Origin: Lactobacillus sp. ESL0680
GTDB taxonomy: Bacteria; Bacillota; Bacilli; Lactobacillales; Lactobacillaceae
Direction of reading: 5' to 3'
Assembly (NCBI RefSeq): GCF_029392855.1
Contig: NZ_CP113945.1
Span: 124,001 to 188,000, forward strand
Length of the DNA stretch: 64,000 nt
This document shows positions 35,889 to 51,173 of this stretch, piece after piece. Made by a program: the position numbers and the translations under genes. How positions within the stretch are numbered: the first letter of the stretch is position 1; every line of letters starts with the position of its first letter. A model generated the notes under the pieces. It was not told the origin of the DNA. It ran no database searches and worked only from the letters and a program-made list of their open reading frames with translations.

Positions 35889-36006
35889 AAAAAAATCCCA
35901 TTCGCACATAGCGAACGGGATTTTGCTTAATTAGCCTATCCCTTGCGCTAGTATTATCTAGATCAGGTTCATGGGTTTAATCTCAGCTTAAATAAGCACC
36001 CCATAG
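35889..36006 (-). promoter_or_regulatory. TPP riboswitch with terminator platform, controlling thiW
   Basis: On the minus strand the THI element runs from about 36006 to 35935: GGGGTGC, CTGAGA, ACCC, GAACCTGATCTAG, TAATACTAGCG and AGGGA are all present in order. Then comes an intrinsic terminator, AATCCCGTTCGC/GCGAATGGGATT plus T run (about 35924-35889), the likely off-switch when thiamine pyrophosphate is bound. Confidence 0.96.
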
Positions 36007-36077
36007 ACTCTTGTATATTAATGTTAATTTGATTATAGACTTTCAATGATGAAAAAGAAAGCATAAATTCTATTTTC

Positions 36078-47173: not shown

Positions 47174-47635
47174 TTAATTGTTTTCTTTGATTGCGCGGTT
47201 AATTTTACTGATTTGCTTTTTTGCTTTAAGCATTGAAGTATACCAAATAATGGCGTAAACAATGACAAAGACGAGGGTATAAAGACTGAGCCACAAGAAG
47301 TTTAGCGGGAACCAACCGGCTAAAATTGCCAGAGGTGTAAATAGACCAAACATTACAATGAAGTGAATAACTGTTTGCTTGGTAATGCTCCACCTCTCTT
47401 GCATGAAGATAAGAGCAGAAGCCCCACCTAGAAAGCCCATCAGAGCCCAGAGAATTGTTGAGATTAAAGTTGCTAAAGTAACAGAAGAAAATCTGTGTAA
47501 GAACGGTAGATTTGATGGCATAAAGTAGTTTGTTTGGTTAATAAGATTGCAGCACAGGGCAATAACAAAGCCAATAGCAATGCCTGAGAGAATACCTGAA
47601 CAACCATAACGGATAATTTTTTTAAATAATTTCAT
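47174..47635 (-). CDS. DUF3021-type membrane protein
   Basis: A 153-residue protein with four predicted membrane helices and a short basic tail. DUF3021 proteins are regularly encoded right after LytTR regulators, as here, where the start overlaps the LytTR stop by 4 bp. It is thought to act as a membrane partner of the regulator, by context only. Confidence 0.8.
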   Translation of the reverse strand: MKLFKKIIRYGCSGILSGIAIGFVIALCCNLINQTNYFMPSNLPFLHRFSSVTLATLISTILWALMGFLGGASALIFMQERWSITKQTVIHFIVMFGLFTPLAILAGWFPLNFLWLSLYTLVFVIVYAIIWYTSMLKAKKQISKINRAIKENN

Positions 47636-48075
47636 TGTAAAAATTCCTTTCTTAACTTTTGCATATATCTTCTTGAGGTAAAAGTTGTTTCGCCAGTGGT
47701 TAAATTAACCTGATAGCAGCCAGTCTTGGTTAAGGATAGACTGTCAATACTTGCAAGACTAACAATTTCAGAGCTGGAAATCTGAATAAAAGTATCTGGC
47801 GGCAAACTGTTATTTAGTTCATATATTCTTGGCTTTATGCGGTAAGTCTGCCCGTCTGCTTCACAGACAACATATTTATTTTGAGTGTAAAAGCGGGTAA
47901 TTTCATAAAGGGGAATCATTTTGATTTGGTTATTTCTACTTCCTTGAATTTGCCAATCGTTAACTAGGTGTCTGATGGAACTGGCCATCTTTTCTAGCTT
48001 AGTGGTTTTCTTATCCGTATTGATGGCAATCCAAGTTGGCTGAAACTGGGGATCTATGTTAAATTTTACAAGCAT
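47632..48075 (-). CDS. LytTR-domain transcriptional regulator
   Basis: A 147-residue protein whose C-terminal half (about residues 50-147) is a LytTR DNA-binding domain: KMIPLYEITRFYTQNKYVVCEADGQ, FIQISSSEIVSLASID, and FTSRRYMQKLRKEF at the end. There is no receiver domain. With the overlapping DUF3021 gene it forms the standard two-gene LytTR regulatory pair, which often controls its own operon. AGGAAG lies upstream of the ATG. Confidence 0.88.
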   Translation of the reverse strand: MLVKFNIDPQFQPTWIAINTDKKTTKLEKMASSIRHLVNDWQIQGSRNNQIKMIPLYEITRFYTQNKYVVCEADGQTYRIKPRIYELNNSLPPDTFIQISSSEIVSLASIDSLSLTKTGCYQVNLTTGETTFTSRRYMQKLRKEFLQ

Positions 48076-48193: not shown

Positions 48194-48221
48194 TTGACAT
48201 TAACGTAAAATGAGATAAACT
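48194..48221 (+). promoter_or_regulatory. Promoter of the trp leader and trpXYZ
   Basis: TTGACA (48194-48199), 16 nt, TAAACT (48216-48221). The predicted start is near 48228, giving about 275 nt of leader before trpX. The stretch 48076-48193, between this promoter and the LytTR gene, shows nothing else I can name. Confidence 0.7.
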
Positions 48222-48252
48222 TAGGATAATTTATTGGAGAAAGGAAATAATT

Positions 48253-48309
48253 ATGATTCAATCGTTCACATTAAACCTGAATAAGAGTTGGCAAAGCCAG
48301 CAGGATTGA
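48253..48309 (+). CDS. Leader peptide with one Trp codon
   Basis: An 18-residue ORF, MIQSFTLNLNKSWQSQQD, with AAAGGAA (48240-48246) 6 nt before the ATG, so it should be translated. The single Trp codon is codon 13 (48289-48291). It lies directly upstream of a terminator-bearing leader and a TrpXYZ-type transporter, as expected for an attenuation leader peptide. The stop codon overlaps the first leader hairpin. Confidence 0.7.
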   Translation: MIQSFTLNLNKSWQSQQD

Positions 48310-48461
48310 TCGTAATCGTCTTGAACGGATACGATCTGGCAAACAGTTTGTATCCGTGCTGACTACTTTTAACTTGACGAAGTTTGTTTGCATGGTAAAA
48401 CGTGCAGCAGGCTTTGCGTCCTTAGGGCAGACCAGAGCAAGTGCTGGTTTGCCTTTTTTTT
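48291..48461 (+). promoter_or_regulatory. Putative attenuator leader with alternative hairpins
   Basis: Hairpin A pairs GATCGTA (48308-48314) with TACGATC (48330-48336). Hairpin B pairs ACGGATAC (48325-48332) with GTATCCGT (48350-48357); A and B exclude each other. GCAAAGCC over the Trp codon (48291-48298) is complementary to GGCTTTGC (48410-48417). GGCAAAC in the loop of B (48338-48344) is complementary to GTTTGCC in the terminator's 3' arm (48447-48453). No T-box sequence is present. The switching model is inferred. Confidence 0.6.
48426..48461 (+). terminator. Leader terminator upstream of trpX
   Basis: GGCAGACCAG pairs fully with CTGGTTTGCC (one G-U), loop of 8 nt, followed by eight T. 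It lies 42 bp before the trpX start, within the same transcript, so it is an attenuator and not an end-of-gene terminator. Confidence 0.9.
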
Positions 48462-48503
48462 GTTGTCAAAAAGCCCTGATTTAACAAAAATTAAGGAGAA
48501 AAA

Positions 48504-49505
48504 ATGAAACGAATGCTCGCATTTATCAGTGCCATTCTATTGTTTTTGGGGGTTGACTTGGCGATAGCTCCCAGAACTGCTAGTCAAACAGCATCTAAAT
48601 CAGAGGTCGTCCGTGTCGGCATCCTGCAGATGATGACCCACCCAGCACTTGACCAAATTCATCACGGAGTGGTTGCTGGACTAAAAGAAGAAGGATTAAT
48701 TACCGGCAAAAATCTAAAAATTGATTTTCTAAATGCTCAAGGAGACCAAAGCAACTTAAAAACAATGTCCCAGCAGCTGGCTAATAAAGATTCACTCTTA
48801 GTGGGAATTGCGACACCGGCGGCACAGGCTCTAGCCAATAGTGCCCCGAAAACAACGCCGATTATTTTGGCAGGGATTTCGACGCCAGCAGCCAGCGGTT
48901 TAGTCAAAAGTGAGGCGCATCCCGGCGGCAATATCACAGGGACTTCTGGTCTTAATCCAGTTTCTAAACAATTTGCATTACTGCACGCAATTATGCCGCG
49001 GGCTAAGAAAATCGGCATCATTTATACTTCATCGGATCATGGCGGGCAGACCAACGCCCACGCCTTTGCACAAGTTGTTAAAAGAGCAGGTTTGATCCCC
49101 AAAATGTATACCATTGCTAACACCAATGATCTTCAGCAAGTAGCTAGTCAGATGGTAAGCCAAGTTGATGCAATTTATGCCCCGCAAGATAACGGCGTGG
49201 CTTCGGCAATGAAGACACTGGTAAATGTTGCTAACAATGCCAATATTCCGGTCTTTCCGTGTGCAGAGACGATGATGCCTGATGGCGGTCTTGCATCTTA
49301 CGTTATTAGTCAGAAAGAGATGGGCAGAATTGCGGGTGTGATGGCTGCCAAAGTCTTGCGCGGCAAGAATCCGGCAACTTATCCGGTTGCCACAGTCAAA
49401 AGCGGCTACTACATGATAAATGAAAAGGAAATGCGTAAATTACATATTAAAATTCCAGCAGCGATTGTTCGTGCTGCTAGACAAAATGGGAAGGTGATCG
49501 AATGA
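48504..49505 (+). CDS. trpX: ABC transporter substrate-binding protein, TrpX type
   Basis: A 333-residue exported receptor of the ABC_sub_bind family (PF04392 type): N-terminal signal segment without a lipobox Cys, then VGILQMMTHPALDQI, GIATPAAQAL and PVFPCAETMMPDGGLASYV. The family includes the streptococcal tryptophan receptor TrpX. The Trp codon in the leader peptide supports tryptophan as ligand, though the protein sequence alone cannot prove it. The stop overlaps trpY (ATGA). Confidence 0.85.
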   Translation: MKRMLAFISAILLFLGVDLAIAPRTASQTASKSEVVRVGILQMMTHPALDQIHHGVVAGLKEEGLITGKNLKIDFLNAQGDQSNLKTMSQQLANKDSLLVGIATPAAQALANSAPKTTPIILAGISTPAASGLVKSEAHPGGNITGTSGLNPVSKQFALLHAIMPRAKKIGIIYTSSDHGGQTNAHAFAQVVKRAGLIPKMYTIANTNDLQQVASQMVSQVDAIYAPQDNGVASAMKTLVNVANNANIPVFPCAETMMPDGGLASYVISQKEMGRIAGVMAAKVLRGKNPATYPVATVKSGYYMINEKEMRKLHIKIPAAIVRAARQNGKVIE

Positions 49506-50404
49506 ATTTAATAACTTCAAGCATTGGGCAAGGATTGTTATGGGCTCTACTAGGGATCGCCTTGTTTTTAACATTCCGCATACTGAATTTTGCCGATATG
49601 ACGGTTGAAGGGACGTTCCCACTAGGCGCGGCTATTACGGTAACGGCAATTACTAAGGGAGTATCGCCGCTCGTTGCCATACTTCTAGGATTTTTAGGCG
49701 GTGCGGCTGGCGGTTTAATTACCGGCTTACTCTATACCAAAGGCAATATTCCAATTCTGCTGGCAGGGATCTTGGTAATGACGGGCTGTTTGTCAGTTAA
49801 CTTGCGGATTATGGGCGGTTCTAACGTTTCACTGCTAGGGCAAAAGACCTTTTTCTCAGCTAAAATCTTCCAAACTCTTCCGCGGTACTTCGACAGTGTA
49901 TTAATTGGCGGCGGGACAATTATTTTAATTACCATTTTGATTGCCCTATTTTTAGAAACTGATTTAGGGCAAGCCTTCATAGTAACGGGTGATAACCAGA
50001 TGATGGCGCGGTCACTAGGGATTAACACCGAGAATATGACAATTTTAGGATTGACCTTGTCTAACGGCTTGGTTGGTCTGGCTGGTGCGTTAATTGCGCA
50101 AAATAATGGCTACGCAGATGCCAATATGGGCATTGGAATTATCGTAATTGCCTTAGCTTCAATTATTATTGGTGAGGTCGTCTTTGGCTATTTAACGCTT
50201 AATCAGCGGTTAATTGCCGTTATCCTAGGCAGTATTATTTATCGGTTTGTCTTGTTGATTGTTTTGCAATTAGGCTTTTCAACTAATGACCTTAATCTGA
50301 TTTCGGCTATTATTTTGGCAGTTTGTCTAATGCTGCCGAAATTGCGGCACGCGTTAAAGTTGGACGGAATTTTACGTAAAGGAGTGAGCCAAAATGGAAA
50401 GTAA
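49502..50404 (+). CDS. trpY: ABC transporter permease, TrpY type
   Basis: A 300-residue membrane protein of the branched-chain/sugar-type permease family (BPD_transp_2), with about eight or nine helices, start LLWALLGIALFLTFRILNFADMTVEG. It overlaps trpX by 4 bp and trpZ by 11 bp, so the three subunits are translationally linked. Confidence 0.88.
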   Translation: MNLITSSIGQGLLWALLGIALFLTFRILNFADMTVEGTFPLGAAITVTAITKGVSPLVAILLGFLGGAAGGLITGLLYTKGNIPILLAGILVMTGCLSVNLRIMGGSNVSLLGQKTFFSAKIFQTLPRYFDSVLIGGGTIILITILIALFLETDLGQAFIVTGDNQMMARSLGINTENMTILGLTLSNGLVGLAGALIAQNNGYADANMGIGIIVIALASIIIGEVVFGYLTLNQRLIAVILGSIIYRFVLLIVLQLGFSTNDLNLISAIILAVCLMLPKLRHALKLDGILRKGVSQNGK

Positions 50405-51173
50405 ACAGGCAGTTTTGACTTTGGATAAAGTGACAACCGTTGTTAACCAGCACACGCCGGCAGAAACAAAAATTTTACGTGATTTGACATTGACGATTAA
50501 TCAAGGCGACTTTATTACCATTGTGGGTGCTAATGGTGCCGGTAAATCAACGCTTTTTAACACGATTAGTGGGTTAATTACCCCGGCAGCAGGAAGAATA
50601 CTGCATCAGGGACAGGAGATTACCCACCAGTCAGTTGAAAAAAGGACCAGCTTCATCAGTCGCGTTTTTCAAGATCCTAAGATGGGAACGGCACCGCGAA
50701 TGACGGTTGCGGAAAATATTCTGCTCGCTAAAAAGCGGGGCGAGCGGCGCGGATTACACTTGCGCAGGTTGGCGGCTCATCGGGAAGAACTGCGTAAAAT
50801 CGCAGCTCAGATGGGTAATTCGTTGGCTGATAAGTTGGACACGCCAACTGAACACCTGTCAGGTGGTCAAAGGCAGACGTTAAGCTTCTTGATGGCAACA
50901 ATTAAGCGACCAGATATTCTCTTATTAGATGAACATACGGCTGCGCTAGACCCCAAAACTAGCCGTGAGTTAATGGCTCAGACCAGTCAGATTGTGACCG
51001 ATCAAAAGTTAACCTGCTTAATGATTACCCACAGCATGGAAGATGCGCTTAAATATGGCAATCGGCTGCTGGTTTTACGTTCGGGTCAAGTGGTAGCTAA
51101 TCTTGACAATAAGCAAAAGGCAAAGCTGAATTTGGACGAACTGATGACCGCTTTTAATGATAATGACGATTAA
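50394..51173 (+). CDS. trpZ: ABC transporter ATP-binding protein, TrpZ type
   Basis: A 259-residue ATPase. Walker A is GANGAGKST, signature LSGGQRQT, Walker B ILLLDEHTAALD, with His in place of the usual Pro after DE, and the H-loop is THSM. It starts inside the trpY gene. It completes the TrpXYZ-type importer. Confidence 0.9.
   Translation: MESKQAVLTLDKVTTVVNQHTPAETKILRDLTLTINQGDFITIVGANGAGKSTLFNTISGLITPAAGRILHQGQEITHQSVEKRTSFISRVFQDPKMGTAPRMTVAENILLAKKRGERRGLHLRRLAAHREELRKIAAQMGNSLADKLDTPTEHLSGGQRQTLSFLMATIKRPDILLLDEHTAALDPKTSRELMAQTSQIVTDQKLTCLMITHSMEDALKYGNRLLVLRSGQVVANLDNKQKAKLNLDELMTAFNDNDD

Follow-up and report, generated by a model that had tools for sequence, protein, structure and literature searches.

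The trpXYZ leader of Lactobacillus sp. ESL0680: a very likely one-codon attenuator and probable member of a modular RNA family that includes the trpB motif

Introduction

Enterobacterial attenuators of the his type consist of six alternating RNA segments and include an A:B pairing. Two papers, in their accessible text, provide precedents for leader-peptide attenuation in Firmicutes: one describes His leader peptides of bacilli that precede hisS* and hisZ (PMC2965389), the other his attenuators present in certain Firmicutes (PMC9413887). In Streptococcus suis, the accessible part of a further study puts the trpXYZ operon under a Trp T-box with a premature terminator (PMC9382623). An orphan RNA, the trpB motif (Rfam RF04312), is presented in the available text of its description as a strong candidate riboswitch that has an antiterminator and hairpins that covary, and that counts >900 representatives from Firmicutes and Fusobacteria; most often it precedes the gene of an uncharacterized ABC transporter similar to those for amino acids, and its authors speculated on a ligand with a role in amino-acid metabolism (PMC11109978). 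The same text leaves a classic attenuator possible, and the words "leader peptide" occur 0 times in its available main text (PMC11109978). Here we analyze the leader of a trpXYZ operon in a 64,000-nucleotide stretch of Lactobacillus sp. ESL0680 (contig NZ_CP113945.1, positions 124,001 to 188,000, forward strand), referred to as the window, whose numbering is used throughout. A sequence-only reading of the window had proposed a Trp-codon leader peptide with a switching terminator. We consider it very likely that the leader is a ribosome-mediated transcription attenuator, which senses charged tRNA-Trp through one Trp codon and belongs to a modular family that swaps codons and genes.

Results

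Parts of the trpXYZ leader

The leader comprises a promoter, a short open reading frame (ORF) with a ribosome-binding site (RBS), and RNA segments A to H with alternative partners.

48194..48221, plus strand: sigma-70-type promoter, TTGACA-16-TAAACT (10/12 consensus bases)
48240..48245, plus strand: RBS AAAGGA of the leader ORF (read directly)
48253..48309, plus strand: leader ORF, peptide MIQSFTLNLNKSWQSQQD followed by stop (read directly; Trp-codon leader at 30/30 same-genus trpX loci, the window included)
48289..48291, plus strand: Trp codon UGG, proposed sensor, the 13th codon and the sole Trp codon of the ORF (read directly; UGG columns invariant in 68 rows selected for an in-frame TGG)
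48292..48306, plus strand: segment A, partner D (swap test, column counts, compensatory changes)
48308..48319, plus strand: segment B, partner C, in the first hairpin of the sequence-only reading (swap test, column counts; -13.3 kcal/mol)
48325..48338, plus strand: segment C, partners B or D (swap test, column counts)
48344..48363, plus strand: segment D, a hub with the three rival partners A, C and E (swap test, column counts)
48376..48395, plus strand: segment E, partners D (antiterminator) or F (swap test, column counts)
48401..48420, plus strand: segment F, partners E or G; in the window's clade no U tract follows E:F (sequence comparison, folding)
48424..48435, plus strand: segment G, terminator 5' arm; GCAGACC (48427-48433) can pair with GG[C]UUUGC (48410-48417) of F (F:G -8.8 kcal/mol)
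48444..48455, plus strand: segment H, intrinsic terminator 3' arm; U tract 48454-48461 (folding, terminator scan)

The promoter, the RBS, the ORF with a lone Trp codon at position 13, two exclusive hairpins and a terminator 42 bp before trpX had all been listed from the sequence, and all are present. The first hairpin (48308-48319 with 48325-48336) and the second (48326-48338 with 48344-48356) are mutually exclusive, and the U tract of the 12-pair terminator (48424-48455) ends at 48461, leaving 42 nt before the trpX start at 48504. The leader folds at -83.5 kcal/mol, compared with -56.4 kcal/mol for shuffled sequences (z -6.3; 0/200 shuffles match). Computed energies of the individual helices are -19.1 (C:D), -13.3 (B:C), -12.5 (A:D), -8.8 (F:G) and -20.3 kcal/mol (G:H). 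The loop GGCAAAC (48338-48344) of hairpin C:D, earlier described as a second anti-arm copy, is indeed complementary to the terminator 3' arm (-11.3 kcal/mol) and is invariant across 13 rows of the window's clade, which correspond to 11 loci (L002/L050 and L005/L051 are duplicates).

Conservation of the Trp leader

Of 75 genomes of the genus, 68 contain a TrpX match if paralogues are included, and we inspected the loci of the 30 best matches. At 30/30 of these loci trpX is preceded by a small ORF whose Trp codon lies close to its 3' end (29 by script, L018 by hand), so that the ORF and its codon, whose conservation in relatives the sequence-only reading had proposed to check, are both kept. The leader N-termini are variable, while a WQ pair before the stop is recurrent; typical endings are RWQFQH, RWQNR and SWQSQQD, each followed by stop. 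These leaders display what is expected of leader-peptide attenuators: a start, an RBS and codons suited to the regulated gene.

A covariance model, R1, was built from 68 relatives' leaders, with rows of the window's clade excluded from training. It recovers the window's leader at an E-value of 9.8e-7 in the window (next match 0.18) and 2.6e-5 in the whole genome (next match 0.15), and finds the leader at 30/30 same-genus loci, one of which (L028) also supplied training row L187. Among 65 further loci, R1 gives 36 matches at E <=0.1, comprising Lactobacillales loci and one from Fusobacterium gastrosuis (L066; E 7.3e-12, peptide MKLYCTKLNLTKYWQSH followed by stop). The 29 loci of this set without a match are L064, where only 167 nt of upstream sequence exist, and loci outside Lactobacillales. 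R1 also missed the leader of a trpX paralogue in the window's own genome, which was located by reading the upstream sequence; searches of the R1 type therefore undercount.

Window-type leaders also occur ahead of trpX in Ligilactobacillus pobuzihii, L. pabuli and Weissella fangxianensis. At the loci L052, L053 and L054 of Ligilactobacillus and Weissella, TrpX is 60-63% identical to that of the window, with a window-type leader alongside. The transporter gene and its leader may possibly have been transferred together between these lineages and that of the window.

Leaders upstream of RF04312 matches

The hairpins of RF04312 correspond to C:D and E:F, and the motif spans the C-F half of the leaders. 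The Rfam model begins at hairpin C:D and therefore covers neither the ORF nor segments A and B. The window itself scores 23.4 bits, below the gathering cut-off of 59, and its homology comes through R1 instead; the leader of a relative (L010) matches RF04312 at 44.4 bits. Matches are found in 210/395 genomes of the window's order, with 59 genomes over the cut-off, and in 4 of 398 genomes of the phylum. Two of these four matches (L098, L099) have leaders, and no upstream leader was found for the other two (L100, L101) of the phylum-wide search.

Among the matches listed in the order and phylum searches we examined 90, namely those with the top scores and others spread over the genera. In 86/90, a stop codon just 5' of the motif is preceded, at no more than 40 nt, by an in-frame TGG. 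Reading frames that start at an ATG with an RBS and run into the Trp codon are present in 81/86 for frame 0, 0/86 for frame 1 and 2/86 for frame 2; at random positions such ORFs arise at a chance rate of 7/695 and 10/607. Many of the relatives' leaders contain one Trp codon and others two or three, and a single Trp codon is thus not the unusual design for which it had been taken. The Trp set excludes four matches: L099 and L143 have leaders with non-Trp codons, while L181 and L178 are described below. The 86 leaders were cut to 68 nonredundant ones. By eye, L181 is a bidirectional terminator beside tRNA-like sequence and, as a leader, an apparent false positive. In L178 the Trp-leader frame is open solely from an ATT, with an RBS-like stretch upstream (by eye).

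The gene 3' of the motif is TrpX-like by blastp at 77/90 examined matches. Six of the 13 non-TrpX genes are trpB-like (L144, with a confirming score of 616.8 bits, and five judged by sequence resemblance); apart from genes that were truncated or had no assignment, the others are a sodium symporter (L099) and an Opp4A-like binding protein (L139). The latter, an oligopeptide-binding protein under a Trp-codon leader, scores 444.9 bits at a cut-off of 650. At L102, an ORF resembling reverse transcriptases of the group II intron kind follows the Trp leader in the expected place of trpX.

Coupled helices

To score a pairing, the swap test compares native segment partners with partners exchanged between leaders, over 2000 permutations. 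Five pairings are coupled in the 68 Trp leaders: A:D (z -9.8), B:C (-14.4), C:D (-11.0), D:E (-7.5) and E:F (-19.0), at 0/2000 each. Seven control pairings (A:B, B:D, C:E, A:C, B:E, B:F and A:E) are uncoupled in the same leaders (z -0.7 to +2.2). Lesser signals are seen for A:F (z -3.9, 0/2000) and C:F (z -2.4, 18/2000); the former is read as transitive because A and E are alike in pairing with D, and we take the latter to be transitive as well.

The percentage of paired positions in the 68 rows is 98.7 for C:D, 90.0 for B:C, 76.6 for A:D, 80.5 for D:E and 92.5 for E:F, which for each helix exceeds all 500 shuffles and lies far above slid versions. Within the window's clade, A:D is kept by compensatory double changes (CAGCA:UGCUG, CGGCA:UGCCG, CGACA:UGUCG). 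RNAalifold applied to 22 Tyr/Phe leaders returned A:D, B:C and E:F unprompted. The leaders thus possess the mark of an attenuator, exclusive terminator and antiterminator helices with covariation, with a mixed outcome by column counts for D:E and partly for A:D.

In leaders carrying non-Trp codons, the same five pairings are again coupled (z -5.0 to -10.3). This non-Trp set was obtained by dropping L238 and adding L143, giving 50 leaders, 42 of them nonredundant, and by removing L204, L211 and L213, where the match runs across two terminators; 39 remain (38 from the order of genome G433, plus L143). A:F reaches z -2.4 (16/2000) and the other controls are null (z -0.4 to +1.8). Comparison shows that relatives carry the ORF, the codon and the predicted helices A:D, B:C, C:D, D:E, E:F and F:G.

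Leader codons follow the downstream gene

In the order of genome G433, a second order of the phylum, RF04312 is found in 43/147 genomes at E <=0.01. We examined 50 of the 66 matches listed there (49 and L099), the remaining 16 all being among the weaker ones. A leader ORF is present at 48/49 of the examined matches, and a stricter finder, with L099 and L143 added, places a leader at 49/51. His-run leaders precede hisS (11/11) and hisZ (1/1), and Leu-run leaders precede one class of sodium symporters (6/6; a seventh, L220, by a laxer finder alone). A sister class of sodium symporters has 22 leaders, 14 with Phe and 8 with Tyr; no leader was found at its member L238. Tyr/Phe leaders precede two BrnQ-type transporters and one TrpX paralogue (L143), Phe leaders precede five TrpY-like permeases, and one further leader-bearing gene is without a class. 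In RF04312-linked leaders, Trp codons stand ahead of trpX and trpB.

Family names were obtained with hmmscan for the representatives L208, L191, L192, L204, L211, L217, L197 and L143, and for the rest by sequence motif and BLAST cluster. HisZ is the best family for the protein of L191, yet its score lies below the curated cut-off (218.2 vs 271.65), as does that of the TrpX paralogue L143 for TrpX (319.3 vs 390). In the BrnQ-type transporters L197 and L201 and the TrpY-like permeases L217, L223, L228, L232 and L234, the codons suggest substrates unlike the annotation (L197 and L217 being the hmmscan-tested ones).

A comparable exchange is seen among trpX paralogues. The paralogue of the window's genome (41% identity, C1:1479105) has a similar leader with the peptide MNTIECRRLQLNTRFYFSYFR followed by stop. 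We fetched 35 upstream sequences of same-genus paralogues, 34 of which are distinct (L272 repeats L264); Tyr/Phe-run leaders, such as RYYFSYFR, RYYLSYYR and RSYFSFFR before the stop, occur at 32/34 of these loci. The two upstreams without a leader both precede paralogues of 36% identity. Since Trp is found at 30/30 trpX loci and Tyr/Phe at 32/34 paralogues, the orthologues are associated with Trp and the paralogues with Tyr/Phe. The paralogue matches in the genomes G042, G050 and G055 contain one in-frame TAA each, with intact Tyr/Phe leaders (L274, L276 and L275, respectively). In other Lactobacillaceae, proteins that are TrpX-like by resemblance (L289, L290, L292-L294) stand behind leaders with RFYYGYFR, FFFGFFR, FAFSFFFR and VYYYGYYG before the stop, which suggests that they may be Phe- or Tyr-specific transporters.

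Predicted ribosome switching and a second terminator

We infer ribosome stalling, the order of events and the direction of the response as follows. When Trp is scarce, the ribosome would wait at UGG and cover A; B:C would then form, free D would take E, released F would take G, and trpXYZ would be transcribed. With ample Trp, the ribosome would reach the stop codon and cover B, so that C:D, E:F and G:H would form and transcription would end. On RNA free of ribosomes, A could hold D, probably stopping transcription as well.

The switch was modelled by partition folding of the 68 leaders with a ribosome mask, using a 12-nt downstream footprint unless stated. The mean probability of D:E, P(D:E), is.66 with the ribosome stalled at UGG,.23 with the ribosome at the stop and.35 without it. 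P(D:E) is higher for the stalled position than for the stop in 63/68 leaders (59-64 across footprints of 9-15 nt).

A second terminator (T2) lies within 150 nt in 53/68 Trp leaders. In these 53 leaders F is coupled to the 5' arm of T2 (z -10.9, 0/2000), and null results are obtained for A to E with the 5' arm and for F with the 3' arm (z -0.2 to +1.3). The pairing of F with T2 recurs in the Tyr/Phe leaders of the genus. In all 33 of these (the window's genome included) TTTT is absent <=14 nt after the first hairpin, and T2 is present (32 by script, L279 by eye). F, mostly UCUAAGUGG, pairs with the T2 5' arm at -9.1 to -15.9 kcal/mol in the 32 script-found leaders, and L258 and L274 each show a compensatory pair. 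The first hairpin of the window's clade likewise lacks a U tract. We read this arrangement as a relay, in which D:E would release F and F would disarm the last terminator.

Operon and genomic context

The operon downstream of the leader consists of three genes.

48504..49505, plus strand: trpX, tryptophan ABC transporter substrate-binding protein (NF041285, 410.8 bits vs equivalog cut-off 390; PF04392)
49502..50404, plus strand: permease gene, trpY-like (PF02653)
50394..51173, plus strand: ATPase gene, trpZ-like (PF00005)

No trpB match was found in the window's genome, while trpB is present in 14/14 control genomes; the absence indicates that import of Trp probably matters, and tryptophan probably has to be imported by this organism. 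No T-box is called in the window, and all 19 T-box matches of the genome lie elsewhere, in keeping with the earlier claim that the leader is not a T-box. A T-box (RF00230) identity is ruled out for the leader, where the family cut-off is not reached.

A LytTR regulator and DUF3021 gene pair (47174-48075, minus strand) adjoins the trpX leader. The sole over-cut-off Rfam match in the window is a TPP riboswitch (35922-36013, minus strand). On the minus strand, a low-scoring hit to c-di-GMP-I (18.9 bits vs cut-off 35) was put down to chance.

Discussion

Weighing the attenuator against other readings

The conserved ORF and codon and the coupled helices support the view, already taken from the sequence, that ribosome position on a Trp-codon leader peptide chooses between the hairpins. 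Several observations weigh against it. The swap statistics ignore relatedness, the control for which consists of null pairings on the same sequences. Column counts give no excess over shuffles for D:E double-change cells (142/500 as high), nor for the doubly changed pairs and pair types of A:D (231/500 and 232/500), and A:D of the window taken alone is unremarkable, 143/2000 shuffles being equally good. Without a ribosome, 31/68 leaders keep P(D:E) >.4, and termination in the ribosome-free state is therefore less clear. The window shows no switch at equilibrium, with P(D:E) at.19 without a ribosome,.12-.33 when stalled and.33-.35 at the stop. It fails to switch in the calculation because C:D (-19.1 kcal/mol) is stronger than B:C (-13.3 kcal/mol); B:C would have to persist kinetically after forming first. 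F:G of the window (-8.8 kcal/mol) is also weaker than G:H (-20.3 kcal/mol), E shows a small unexplained signal with the T2 3' arm (z -2.8, 4/2000), and the attenuator model assigns no role to the strong complementarity of A to F and H in the window's clade.

This complementarity might instead indicate a design particular to the clade, in which A pairs with F or H besides or in place of the family mechanism; we regard such a design as unlikely. The complementarities pointed out in the sequence-only reading do exist and are strong in the clade. In the window, A:H (GGCAAAGCCAG with the terminator 3' arm) reaches -19.4 kcal/mol, a value that 0/2000 shuffles of A equal, and A:F (GCAAAGCC with GGCUUUGC) reaches -17.8 kcal/mol (15/2000), compared with -12.5 kcal/mol for A:D (143/2000). 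The complementarity is kept over the 13 clade rows, save A:H in L053, and A:F has its lesser signal family-wide (z -3.9, 0/2000). However, A is not clearly coupled to the T2 3' arm in the family (z -1.6, 99/2000), and within the clade it is A:D that is kept by compensatory changes, while A:H drops from -19.4 to -11.4 kcal/mol in L053. A ribosome stalled at UGG would moreover presumably cover A, the wrong sense for an importer induced by scarcity. The covariation expected by the sequence-only reading is thus present in the leader helices, with a lesser signal for A:F and an unclear one for A with the T2 3' arm. As the main family mechanism, A:F and A:H are ruled out by the swap tests; they remain an unexplained clade feature.

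Two further explanations were weighed. A riboswitch binding a metabolite or protein, as the motif's authors first proposed, would sense the amino acid or a factor directly and make the ORF incidental; a published strong candidate with covarying hairpins, an antiterminator and a speculated ligand in amino-acid metabolism lends it some weight, and the available text of the same study kept a classic attenuator possible (PMC11109978). Against a riboswitch, the conserved region continues 5' into an ORF that has a start codon and an RBS (frame 0 in 81/86 leaders), and the codons change along with the gene while the hairpins stay, which leaves it very improbable. We give still less credence to the TnaC-like alternative raised by the sequence-only reading, in which a nascent peptide and bound tryptophan would stall the ribosome at the stop and select the fold. 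In arrest of the TnaC type, Trp is fixed in position relative to the stalled C-terminus. A short peptide with a single Trp close to its C-terminus would suit such an arrest, but the distance from Trp to stop varies between 9 and 33 nt in the 86 leaders, though it is 12 or 18 in 66/86. The C-terminus, including the last residue, is also variable, and His, Phe, Tyr or Leu codons replace Trp before other genes. High Trp would, in addition, presumably induce the importer, which is the wrong sense. A leader read by the ribosome at its Trp codon remains the preferred explanation.

A probable modular attenuator family

Beyond the window, RF04312 probably makes up the distal half of a single family of modular attenuators in Firmicutes and Fusobacteria. 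Each member would owe its amino-acid sense to leader codons that can be exchanged (Trp, His, Phe, Tyr, Leu), and hub D would be rewritten to match. In many members two terminators would be linked as a relay, with the first hairpin's 3' arm serving as an antiterminator for the second; in two Lactobacillus branches, including that of the window, the first terminator would have become a pure relay hairpin. The leader codons would then predict transporter substrates.

Four points look new: what the orphan motif is, how codons are exchanged while the RNA architecture stays the same, the topology with A:D, and the relay. We found no literature naming the orphan motif as an attenuator or describing the other three, in a search that mostly did not extend to subscription papers; the same search returned no joint occurrence of "trpX" and "leader peptide". 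If the proposal is correct, an orphan riboswitch candidate gains a testable identity, in which the sensed quantity would be tRNA charging as read by the ribosome. Leader-peptide attenuation would form a broad modular alternative to T-boxes, present in Lactobacillales, a second order of the phylum and at least one Fusobacterium. Leader codons could serve as a guide to the substrates of poorly annotated amino-acid transporters, for example Tyr/Phe for the trpX paralogues, and the two-terminator relay, if shown to work, would be an unusual circuit element.

Comparison with known systems

The Trp T-box of S. suis resembles the window's leader in its operon, its presumed signal of uncharged tRNA-Trp and its premature terminator; as far as the accessible text of that study goes, the difference is that the T-box binds tRNA directly (PMC9382623), and none is called in the window. 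An over-cut-off T-box lies directly 5' of a trpX-like gene in an Erysipelotrichaceae metagenome-assembled genome (L084, 5683-5919), so trpX is under a T-box elsewhere too. The His leaders of bacilli and the his attenuators of Firmicutes share with our leaders the use of leader-peptide attenuation in this phylum and His runs before hisS and hisZ; in the accessible text of these papers they are linked neither with the trpB motif nor with other amino acids or the present segment topology (PMC2965389, PMC9413887). The trpB motif is matched by the relatives' leaders, with the ORF, A and B lying outside the Rfam model.

Enterobacterial his-type attenuators are alike in having a leader peptide with sensor codons and alternating segments, between whose arrangements, B:C with D:E or C:D with E:F, the ribosome chooses. 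The A:B helix expected from that type was not found by the swap test in the 68 Trp or the 39 non-Trp leaders (z -0.1 and +1.8, respectively). Instead, the leaders described here pair A with D, which gives D three rival partners, couple a second terminator through F, and often present one Trp codon to the ribosome rather than a run of codons.
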